64,000 nt of DNA, from positions 220,344 through 284,343 of the forward strand of contig CANXME010002325.1 of NCBI GenBank assembly GCA_948144175.1, written 5' to 3'. The notes under the pieces are model-generated. The model did not search any database and had not been told where the DNA came from. It saw nothing but the letters and a program-made list of their open reading frames with translations. The position numbers and the translations under genes are program-made. Positions 28,060 to 63,924 of this stretch are shown in pieces. Position 1 is the first letter of the stretch. The number at the start of each line of letters is the position of its first letter. Source of the DNA: Closterium sp. NIES-65. Taxonomy: Eukaryota > Streptophyta > Zygnematophyceae > Desmidiales > Closteriaceae.

Positions 28060-31000
28060 ATGGGTGCTGGCCGAAAGACCACGACGTATCAGTATGACAC
28101 GGCAAACCAGAAGGGAGATTCGTCGCGCCAGCGCGTGCAGTTCCGCCTGTTGCCGCGGGAGCAGCTGGGGGGTTGCGTGTTCGGATGCACCAAGGAGACT
28201 TTCTCGGAATGTATCAGAAAAGAGCTATTTGGTGAGTGTTCTTATAGCGAGTATGTAACAGAGAAACTTGGCCATCAGCGCGTGCAGTTCCGCCTGTTGC
28301 CGCGGGAGCAGCTGGGGGGTTGCGTGTTCGGATGCACCAAAGAGACTTTCTCGGAATATATCAGAAAAGAGCTATTTGGTGAGTGTTCTTATAGCGAGTA
28401 TGTACCAGAGAAACTTGGCCATCAGCGTGTGCAGTTCCGCCTGTTGCCGCGGGAGCATCTGGGGGGTTGCGTGTTCGGATGCACCAAAGAGACTTTCTCG
28501 GAATGTGTCACAAAAGAACTTTTCAGTGAGCGTTCTTATAACGATTTATTGGCGCTCAACTGTCAAAAGAGGATGTAAAAAGCATTACCTTCCGGTCCGG
28601 TCATTAATCTCTTTTCCCTGTTCCCACCGTCCCACTCTCCCCTCACAGGCCTGCCATACAACCACATGGAGTACGTTCAGAACATCGCCTGGCATTCCTG
28701 TCTTCCTTTTGATTCGATCAAAAGAGCTTACGTATCCTCGCTTCTCCCTCTCTTGCCTCGCCTCCTTGCCAGGCCTGCCTTACAACCACATGGAGTACGT
28801 TCAGAACATTGCTCCCGGCATGCCTCTCTTCCTCTACTCGTTCCCCTCATCACGCCTTCCCTCCCATCCTCCCACTCTCCCCCCTCAGGCCTGCCCTACA
28901 ACCACATGGAGTACGTTCAGAACATCAAACCCGGCTTGCCTCTCTTCCTCTTTAACTACTCGGACCGCCGCTTACACGGGATCTTTGAGGCGGTCAGCCA
29001 TGGCGATTTGGAAATCGACCCACATGGCTGGACGGGCAAGAATGGCGGCGAGACACGCTTCCCCGCCCAGGTACCTATCTTGCTCTGTGCTGGTTTCTCT
29101 TCTTTGTTGTCTCCCTCTCCATGGGTCCGTCTCTCTTCCCTGCTGTCCTCCTTGCCGTCTCGCTCCCGGCTTGCCTCTCTTCCTCTTTAACTACTCGGAC
29201 CGCCGTTTACACGGGATCTTTGAGGCGGTCAGCCATGGCGATTTGGAAATCGACCCTCATGGCTGGACGGGCAAGAATGGCGGCGAGACACGCTTCCCCG
29301 CCCAGGTTGGTACCCTCCCTGCTCTTTCCATCCACTCCCTGCCCAAGTTTCCTCCTCCTCTCTCTACCAGTCTCTCGTCCCTGCTGTTTCTCCAAAGGTC
29401 TGCCTGCCGTCCCCTCCCCGGTGTATCTCCCGGCATGCCTCTCTTCCTCTTCAACTTCTCGGATCGCCGCCTGCATGGGGTGTTCGAGGCGGTCAGCCAT
29501 GGAGATTTGGAGATTGACCCTCATGGGTGGACGGGCAGGAATGGTGGCGAGACACGCTTCCCCACCCAGGTAGGTACCCTTCTTGCTCTCTGCTGGTCTC
29601 TCTTCCCTTCTGTCTCCCTGTCCACGGGTCTACCTCTCTTCCCTGGCCTCACTTTCCCGGCCTCTCCTTGATCTCCCTGCGTGCCTCTCTCTCGCTCCCG
29701 GCAAGCCTGCTTCCTCTTCAACTATTTGGACCGCCGCCTGCACGGAATCTTTGAGGCGGTGAGCCATGGAGATTTGGAAATCGACCCGCATGGCTGGACG
29801 GCCAGGAACGGCGGCGAGACACGCTTCCCCGCCCAGGTACCCTCGTTACTCTCTGTCTGCTGGTCTCCCTTCCCTGGTCTCTTCTTGCTCTCTTCTGGTA
29901 TCTCTTCTCTGTTGTCTCCCTCCTCAAGGGCCCACCTCTCTTTTCTGGCCTCTCTTCCCCAGCCTCTTTTTCTCCCTCCCGGCATGCCTCTCTTCCTCTT
30001 CAACTACTCGGATCGCCGCTTACACGGGGTGTTTGAGGCAGTCGGCCACGGAGATCTGGAGATCGACCCTCATGGCTGGATGGGCAGGAATGGCGGCGAG
30101 ACACGCTTCCCCGCCCAGGTAGGTACCCTCCCTGCTCTTTCCTTCTTTCTATTCTCTGGTCCCTTTGCAAATCGCAAGCCTCTCGTCGCTGCTGTCTCTC
30201 CAAGGGGCCGCCTCTCTTCCCTGGTCTCTCCTCCCTACACTCCGTCTCCCAGCATGCCTCCCTTTCTCTCTAACTACTTGCACCGCCCAGGGGCTTGCAA
30301 GGAGTAGATTCAACCCGCGTTCCCTTCTTCGGCCTTGCCTCTGTTCGCCCTTCCCCTCCTCCCTTCTGCCTTGTCCTCTTTGGCCCTACTTCTTCCCCTC
30401 CCTCTCCCATCCCCTTTTCCTCCCCTTCCGACCAGGTGCGGGTTCGTTTGCGTCACAACTGTTCCCCTCTCCCAGAGGCCACCTACGGCCCGGCCCTATC
30501 AGCCAACTACTACTCTGTCACGCACTTCATGTTCGAATTAGGCCACCAGCAGACCCACCTGGTTCACAGTTAACCTGCCTTCCCACCCCTACTCCCCTCT
30601 CCAGGTGAAGTTCCGTCTGCGCCACAAGTGTTCCCCTCTCCCTGAGACCACCTACGGCCCGGCCCTATCAGCCAACTACTACTCTGTCACGCACTTCATG
30701 TTCGAATTAGGCCACCAGCAGACCCACCTGGTTCACAGTTAGCCTGCCTTCCCACCCCTACTGCCCTCTCCAGGTGAAGTTCCGTCTGCGCCACAAGTGT
30801 TCCCCTCTCCCTGAGACCACGTACGGCCCGGCCCTATCAGCCAACTACTACTCCTCCACGCACTTCATGTTCAAATTAGACCACCAGCAGACCCATACAG
30901 ACCTGCTTCATGCTTCAACCTACCTTCTCTTCCCTTTACCTTGCGTCTGCTTTCCCTTCCCCTCCTCCCTTCGGCCTTGGCCTCTTTTGCCCTCGTCCCC

Positions 31001-63924: not shown

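Follow-up and report, generated by a model that had tools for sequence, protein, structure and literature searches.

Internal tandem duplication leaves direct, head-to-tail copies within one gene and places each stray copy on a side that is fixed by geometry. Both of these features are seen in a 64,000-nucleotide stretch of Closterium sp. NIES-65 DNA (contig CANXME010002325.1, positions 220,344 to 284,343; hereafter the window, numbered from its own first letter), where introns of four genes carry serial partial copies of exon edges. A stray partial exon copy inside an intron is referred to here as an echo, and the exon-end copy joined to the rest of its exon as the main copy. The geometry of the echoes of exon ends is also that of dmrt1 of Solea senegalensis, where, in the available part of the account, a direct duplication that begins within an exon has placed part of that exon (exon I' delta) farther downstream, in an intron (PMC7605655). 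That case involves one 10.4-kb region with whole exons, whereas Closterium has dozens of short serial copies at most edges of the four genes, and its partial copies are constrained.

Other described systems share single features with these arrays. In tandem exon duplication and mutually exclusive exons, intronic exon-like copies are kept coding, as far as the accessible text of PMC9013439 describes them. Coding constraint is likewise observed in the Closterium copies, with a ratio of replacement to silent divergence (Ka/Ks) of 0.154 for 32 of the 36 echoes, a value that does not imply present-day selection. In contrast, mutually exclusive copies are described in the same text as whole and furnished with both splice sites, while echoes carrying both exon edges number 0 of 36. 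Work on Dscam lists gene conversion among its terms (PMC3236188, as indexed). In intron gain by tandem duplication, splice signals are also copied inside a gene, but there a duplicated exonic AGGT segment creates the intron (PMC4974935, in the portion available); in Closterium, existing introns grow and the main structure stands. Gain of the AGGT type was not encountered: the main exons of the first two genes below splice in frame without it, and the duplications span existing borders. Introners, too, are sequences repeated in many introns, but the accessible part of PMC9860276 describes one element across many genes, whereas each echo resembles its own neighbouring exon only, with no likeness to other genes of the window. 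No published account of such exon-edge arrays appeared among the literature matches listed, most subscription journals being outside the search.

The 36 echoes lie at 16 exon edges in a gene for a DCD-domain protein (14 echoes), an amino-acid transporter gene (9), a PSRP5-like gene (1) and a histidine-kinase gene (12). They are direct tandem duplications, mostly of 60–280 bp, over one border each and repeatedly re-duplicated. Taken together, their exon parts show protein-coding constraint in the way they differ from the main exon. This constraint, which the original prediction had not noticed, is a stronger oddity than the side on which the copies lie. Dead copies would not yield it. The original prediction, made from the sequence, had counted about 35 partial exon copies in the same four genes, and genes, coordinates and number all agree with the present inventory. 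The name PSRP5 is taken over from that prediction as an assumption.

Echoes were detected by self-BLAST and a tandem-repeat search of the introns of the four genes, followed by alignment of each array with hand-chosen borders. In addition, an edge scan over seven gene models compared 60-bp stretches from the fronts and ends of exons with their own gene plus 3 kb. The copies are direct and head-to-tail, with a spacing of 62–282 bp and a single case of 808 bp. In DCD, echoes occur at the exon-1 end (2), exon-2 front (2), exon-2 end (5), exon-3 front (4) and exon-3 end (1); in the transporter, at the exon-1 end (4), exon-3 end (2) and exon-4 front (3). The main exons and arrays are as follows.

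28060..28231, forward strand: DCD exon 1, main copy; in-frame splicing to exons 2 and 3 gives the DCD domain (PF10539 in the NIES-65 homologues P0009 and P0010)
28276..28525, forward strand: array A, two exon-1 end echoes with donor (28276-28378, 28423-28525); period 147, in frame, open
28649..28832, forward strand: array B, two exon-2 front echoes with acceptor (28649-28703, 28774-28832; alignment, edge scan)
28889..29070, forward strand: DCD exon 2, main copy (in-frame splicing)
29165..30288, forward strand: array C, exon-2 end echoes with donors (29165-29305, 29430-29569, 29702-29836, 29978-30118) and a remnant (30243-30288)
30437..31240, forward strand: array D, four exon-3 front echoes with acceptors (about 30437, 30606, 30775, 31044; alignment, edge scan)
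31306..33943, forward strand: DCD exon 3, main copy (in-frame splicing; end set by eye at a GTGATT donor)
about 34000..34085, forward strand: array N, one exon-3 end echo with donor (self-BLAST, edge scan)
50952..52086, forward strand: transporter exon 1, main copy (Aa_trans family)
52121..52499, forward strand: arrays E/Es, exon-1 end echoes with donors (52121-52275, 52289-52344, 52358-52407, 52444-52499)
52847..52987, forward strand: transporter exon 2, no echoes
53494..53688, forward strand: transporter exon 3, main copy (in-frame splicing)
53743..53918, forward strand: array F, two exon-3 end echoes with donors (alignment, edge scan)
54020..54360, forward strand: array G, exon-4 front echoes with acceptors (54127-54225, 54268-54360) and a remnant (54020-54083)
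54403..55343, forward strand: transporter exon 4, main copy (in-frame splicing)
55779..56024, reverse strand: PSRP5-like exon 2, main copy (same splice in the Naga37s-1 model P0129)
56164..56207, reverse strand: array H, one PSRP5-like exon-2 front echo, acceptor AG lost
58156..59376, ends approximate, reverse strand: last coding block of the kinase, main copy of the exon echoed in array I (protein matches)
59440..59716, reverse strand: array I, the exon front at 59376 echoed twice; the second copy (59605-59716) is short of the edge
59807..60228, low end approximate, reverse strand: kinase main exon J (protein matches)
60346..60597, reverse strand: array J, the exon front at 60228 echoed twice (60346-60468, 60531-60597); AG is lost in the second copy
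60610..60681, reverse strand: array Ke, end echo with donor of the exon at 60761-60882
60761..60882, reverse strand: kinase main exon K (protein matches)
60979..61226, reverse strand: array Kf, two front echoes with acceptors of the same exon
61343..61412, reverse strand: array Le, end echo with donor of the exon at 61468-61573
61468..61573, reverse strand: kinase main exon L (protein matches)
62308..62391, reverse strand: array Lf, front echo of the same exon, 808 bp away behind a 13-bp satellite
62842..63272, reverse strand: array M, three end echoes of the exon at 63371-63520 (about 63174-63272, 62985-63075, 62842-62919), donor in the first only
63371..63520, high end approximate, reverse strand: kinase main exon M (protein matches)

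Individual echoes of the arrays on the reverse strand are numbered away from their exon (J1, J2 and so on). The four exons of the transporter give a product of 803 residues, and their phases fit.

The splice edge is reached by 32 of the 36 echoes, all except 30243-30288, 54020-54083, 59605-59716 and 62842-62919. Read by eye, GT or AG is kept in 29 of these 32 (donors 16/17, acceptors 13/15). The window thus holds a natural set of duplicated splice sites, with 29 intact dinucleotides, for the study of spliceosome choice among near-equal sites in vivo. Echoes mark 16 of the 21 edges in the four genes: 5/5 in DCD, 3/6 in the transporter, 7/8 in the histidine kinase and 1/2 in the PSRP5-like gene. 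Recurrence in several genes, as originally proposed, is thereby confirmed, and three neighbouring genes have none: across their 7 introns, 0 of 14 edges has an echo (FAX-like 0/10, cyclin-like pair 0/4, mutual paralogue matches excluded). The names FAX-like and cyclin-like are presumed ones, and both cyclin-like models are approximate, with exons not in frame, and were used solely as edge controls. In Pfam, no match was found for the PSRP5-like protein, nor for residues 1-110 of the FAX-like protein. No inverted copy pairs occur inside the seven gene bodies, and no self-BLAST pair joins two of the seven genes, the cyclin-like paralogues excepted. Self-BLAST matches of DCD outside its own gene are confined to a CAG-rich exon stretch (32801-33032).

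It had also been claimed that copies of an exon front lie only upstream of the exon and copies of an exon end only downstream. As an ordering this is exact. In the seven-model edge scan, all 34 same-strand copies that reach the edge fall on the expected side; without two that come from the cyclin-like paralogue pair, the echoes proper score 32/32. Nine more scan matches stop short of the edge, two on the expected side and seven on the other, where the distal ends of echoes from the same exon's opposite edge account for all seven. As a finding in itself the rule does not stand, since the geometry of duplication forces the side. Because the copy continuous with the exon is the main one by definition, stray copies with a donor lie downstream of it and those with an acceptor upstream. 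The main copy is the first for a duplicated donor and the second for a duplicated acceptor, and no process choosing a side is required. The rule argues against dispersed insertion and nothing beyond. The accompanying proposal of tandem duplication across exon-intron borders is borne out by direct head-to-tail copies, each over one border.

A special process that targets exon edges is likewise superfluous, as random duplications with short introns suffice. When observed unit lengths were placed at random on 170-bp exons, the single-edge share of intronic plus single-edge duplications was 1.0, 0.88, 0.69 and 0.47 for introns of 120, 200, 300 and 500 bp, respectively. Echo-bearing introns between main exons of DCD and the transporter measure ~70–350 bp after subtraction of the duplicated unit lengths. 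The 16 array-bearing edges compare with one intron-only array of similar unit size (53173-53479), which fits the random-placement range. Introns with echoes tend towards greater length and a higher C content (0.13–0.46, against 0.22–0.28 in control genes), with overlapping ranges. With regard to pyrimidine-rich introns as a cause of echoes, transporter intron 2 is C-rich yet lacks an exon echo; its repeats are non-exonic only.

Constraint was measured by comparing main exon and echo codon by codon in the main frame, with gapped codons dropped, so that frameshifts are not scored as replacements or stops. In DCD and the transporter, 20 echoes showed 111 silent and 88 replacement changes, for a Ka/Ks of 0.197 (bootstrap 0.14–0.27; 0.14–0.235 without any one array) and no stop in 638 codons. 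The result was replicated in the histidine-kinase and PSRP5-like genes, where 13 echoes showed 78 silent and 35 replacement changes (Ka/Ks 0.10; changes by codon position 21/15/77), with a single stop at the ragged end of M3. The pooled set of 32 of the 36 echoes, which leaves out 30243, 54020, 34000 and M3, has 187 silent and 119 replacement changes, a Ka/Ks of 0.154 and 0 aligned-frame stops in 934 codons. For comparison, a null was simulated with free drift of the echo, constraint on the main exon and varied transition bias. For the pooled set its mean Ka/Ks was 0.38–0.55, with a minimum of 0.26, and 5.9–8.1 stops were expected, stop figures that are slightly high since the simulations held 316–325 differences against 306 observed. 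With one echo per array, and hence less shared ancestry, the observed Ka/Ks was 0.11–0.19 against a null minimum of 0.23; over both sets the null means span 0.38–0.56.

Changes by codon position number 75/42/200, or 38/31/119 without CpG-like contexts and 33/21/67 for transversions only (46 bp of echo 52121-52275 entered these counts twice). CpG hypermutation as the source of the third-position changes was rejected, as the excess survives removal of CpG-like contexts. The arrays differ among themselves: B (0.35) and D (0.38) are near neutral, while Es, C and G (0.06–0.13) are far from it. Changes that separate a main exon from all its echoes are 24 silent and 6 replacement. Echo-private changes are intermediate (55 silent and 47 replacement, against 23–30% silent if neutral), and one of them, put alone into the main codon, would make a stop.

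The account favoured here, to which about an even chance is given, is recurrent tandem duplication in which echoes exchange sequence with, or descend from, diverged functional exon edges. Serial tandem duplications over single exon-intron borders have left stray partial exons, most of them with a splice site, and the constraint would come from contact with functional exons. Copies within an array, and gene copies in diverged homologues, could exchange sequence by unequal crossing-over or gene conversion. Each present echo would then recently have been, or descend from, a working exon edge, and would have drifted only afterwards. The normal product would be kept through use of the outer donor and the inner acceptor, and the echoes would probably be by-products that are tolerated and now and then spliced, not a dedicated device. 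NIES-65 and NIES-64 belong to the C. peracerosum-strigosum-littorale complex, for which the accessible part of PMC10407611 reports widespread duplicated genes, a hybrid origin of NIES-4550 and recombination between sequences of different origin. The species complex is hybridising and copy-number-variable, and exchange would take place in that setting. Were exchange the cause of the constraint, recombination would act on exon edges at a pace sufficient for intronic debris to remain coding.

The most direct hint of exchange lies in array C. Its first echo (29168) is 98.6% identical to the main exon-2 end, and the adjoining introns differ by ~0.5 per site, so that the exon tract is common with main exon 2 and the intron is not (run test P = 0.0014; 29 pairs tested, not corrected). 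In array D, a 22-site run common to two echoes was equalled in 0 of 5,000 permutations (again 29 pairs, not corrected). Over these 29 pairs, a test for conversion tracts, such as link silent cassettes with expressed copies, gave one main-echo tract, that at 29168, and one echo-echo tract; re-duplication could also yield both. The independence of constraint from in-frame or open status, described below, was counted for exchange as well. In DCD, echo 28774 (front) shares the variant GCTCCCGGCATG, or its CTCCCGGCATG part, with echoes 29430 and 29978 (end), where main exon 2 has AAACCCGGCTTG. Its presence on both sides of exon 2 looks as if another version of the exon once stood there.

Several observations weigh against exchange. 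The array-D tract, and perhaps that of array C, can be explained by re-duplication. Echo J1 (60346-60468) differs from its main exon by 16 silent and 2 replacement changes, the former at 16 of ~24 silent sites, which is far too many for ongoing exchange with the present main exon; its own residues (extra N, K and Q) match 0 of the 4 other-strain models that cover it. Residues W, S and N of I2 recur in the Naga37s-1 echo, which gives I2 the look of a separate, old lineage. Of 33 unit lengths, 17 are multiples of three where ~11 are expected, a modest excess of the kind that translation predicts. Finally, the donor allele is hypothetical. A mixed explanation may apply.

Alternatively, echoes may be translated, with duplicated splice sites adding in-frame units or cassette exons and selection on the added protein keeping the sequence. 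This explanation is tentative and clearly less probable than exchange. Coding constraint fits it, as do the splice dinucleotides kept in 29 of 32 echoes, and 9 of 33 unit steps are both in frame and open. However, translation of inserted units should make in-frame, open units the more constrained, and the nine of that kind (0.136) differ little and not significantly from the 24 with an out-of-frame or stop-bearing unit (0.167; P 0.30, from rounded values); read-through translation as the sole cause of constraint is thus unsupported. Frameshifting indels occur in the exon parts of at least five echoes (29702, 52289, 61146, 62308 and 60610), although assembly error may account for those of a single base in the kinase region. 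End echoes, moreover, start within the exon and lack its acceptor.

Deposited gene models make use of echoes as exons in NIES-65, NIES-64, Naga37s-1 and Yama58-4, which upholds the earlier suggestion that they could be a source of new exons. For example, NIES-65 model P0002 treats echo 52428-52499 as a predicted exon of 24 residues and, starting at the 54268 acceptor, continues in frame across 135 bp to exon 4. NIES-64 model P0006 shows the same two uses, plus echo 52122-52277. Models P0003 and P0129 of Naga37s-1 and P0132 and P0134 of Yama58-4 contain echo sequence at the same edges; between them, echoes appear at the kinase K front and end, M end and I front (up to four copies), and at the transporter exon-4 front. 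Deposited NIES-65 models of DCD run through at least five echoes. All of these models are nevertheless predictions only, and C/T-rich introns without stops invite read-through in predicted models. P0009 and P0010, for instance, start in the wrong frame of exon 2. No echo is present in the models of NIES-68 (P0005, P0130), NIES-53 (P0131, partial) or the Yama58-4 transporter (P0004), nor in P0007 and P0133, although absence from a gene model does not show absence from the DNA. The last two are taken to be Mesotaenium and Spirogloea from their ids. In a strain comparison by protein, ~7 of 109 echo residues differ against ~1 of 138 main-exon residues, counted by eye and in need of silent-site distances to be read. 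If constraint is due to use, these arrays capture an intermediate stage in the making of new exons from exon edges. In practical terms, echoes mislead gene prediction in Closterium.

A broader proposal is that the arrays are lineage-wide and under protein-level selection, either as optional coding units via duplicated splice sites or as conversion templates for the adjoining exon edges. It is regarded as doubtful, on a par with translation.

That echoes are neutral fossils, shed serially as partial copies by a living exon and free to decay in the intron, is improbable. Such a process accounts for the order of the copies, their splice sites, the few frameshifts, the lost sites (H, J2, M2) and the unreached ones (I2, M3), and arrays B and D as well as the echo-private changes lie nearer to neutral. 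It predicts, however, the Ka/Ks and stop counts of the null, and the pooled values fall well below both; for the pooled set it was rejected, and only single echoes could qualify.

Least likely is an assembly artefact that joined diverged homologous contigs or reads within introns: more than half of shared gene groups are duplicated in NIES-65 (PMC10407611, in its available portion) and small kinase-region indels (63826-63930 against P0131) indicate residual errors unless the gene is decaying, but array periods are regular with shared junctions, NIES-65 models from two contigs (P0009, 125,683 bp; P0010, 284,343 bp) encode echoes of the DCD exon-2 end and exon-3 front, transporter echoes are encoded by NIES-64 model P0006, and models of Naga37s-1 and Yama58-4 have echoes at the same edges. 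The residues of these models that lie in exact window segments of at least 8 residues are 708/709 for P0002 (contig of 125,683 bp), 529/532 for P0009, 607/607 for P0010 and 666/666 for P0006.

Some details of the individual genes deserve mention. P0009 and P0010 represent the same DCD array on different NIES-65 contigs and differ in exon choice. Within 30437-31425, main DCD exon 3 lacks two codons that are kept by all four front echoes, and array D may hold an older form of that exon. In the kinase gene, the end of main exon M (63371-63391, reverse strand) has one base extra relative to the echo at 63174, and a conserved ACLCHE, whose His is presumably the phospho-acceptor, is intact in that echo and broken in the main copy. 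Further single-base indels occur upstream relative to NIES-53 P0131 (63826-63930, reverse strand). These indels may reflect assembly error, decay or an echo serving as the real exon end. The kinase intron also carries, between its echoes, a 13-bp satellite (~50 copies) and a 24-bp satellite (16 copies, 96%), at 61574-62213 and 62497-62885.

Elsewhere in the window, a tandem cyclin-like gene pair (37415-38373 and 40805-41772, reverse strand) has exon blocks that are 82–84% identical, with no echoes, and an open reading frame (ORF) with a methyltransferase domain (49441-50430, reverse strand) adjoins the transporter. Positions 1-27000 are transposon-rich, with a Ty3-type Pol ORF that includes integrase and chromodomain (5984-8770), a second reverse transcriptase (16227-17435, reverse strand) and a tyrosine-recombinase-like match (13949-14854). 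In this region, 1-4963 is repeated directly at 20383-25388 (85%), and 11323-13995 is repeated in inverted orientation at 19056-21711 (91%).
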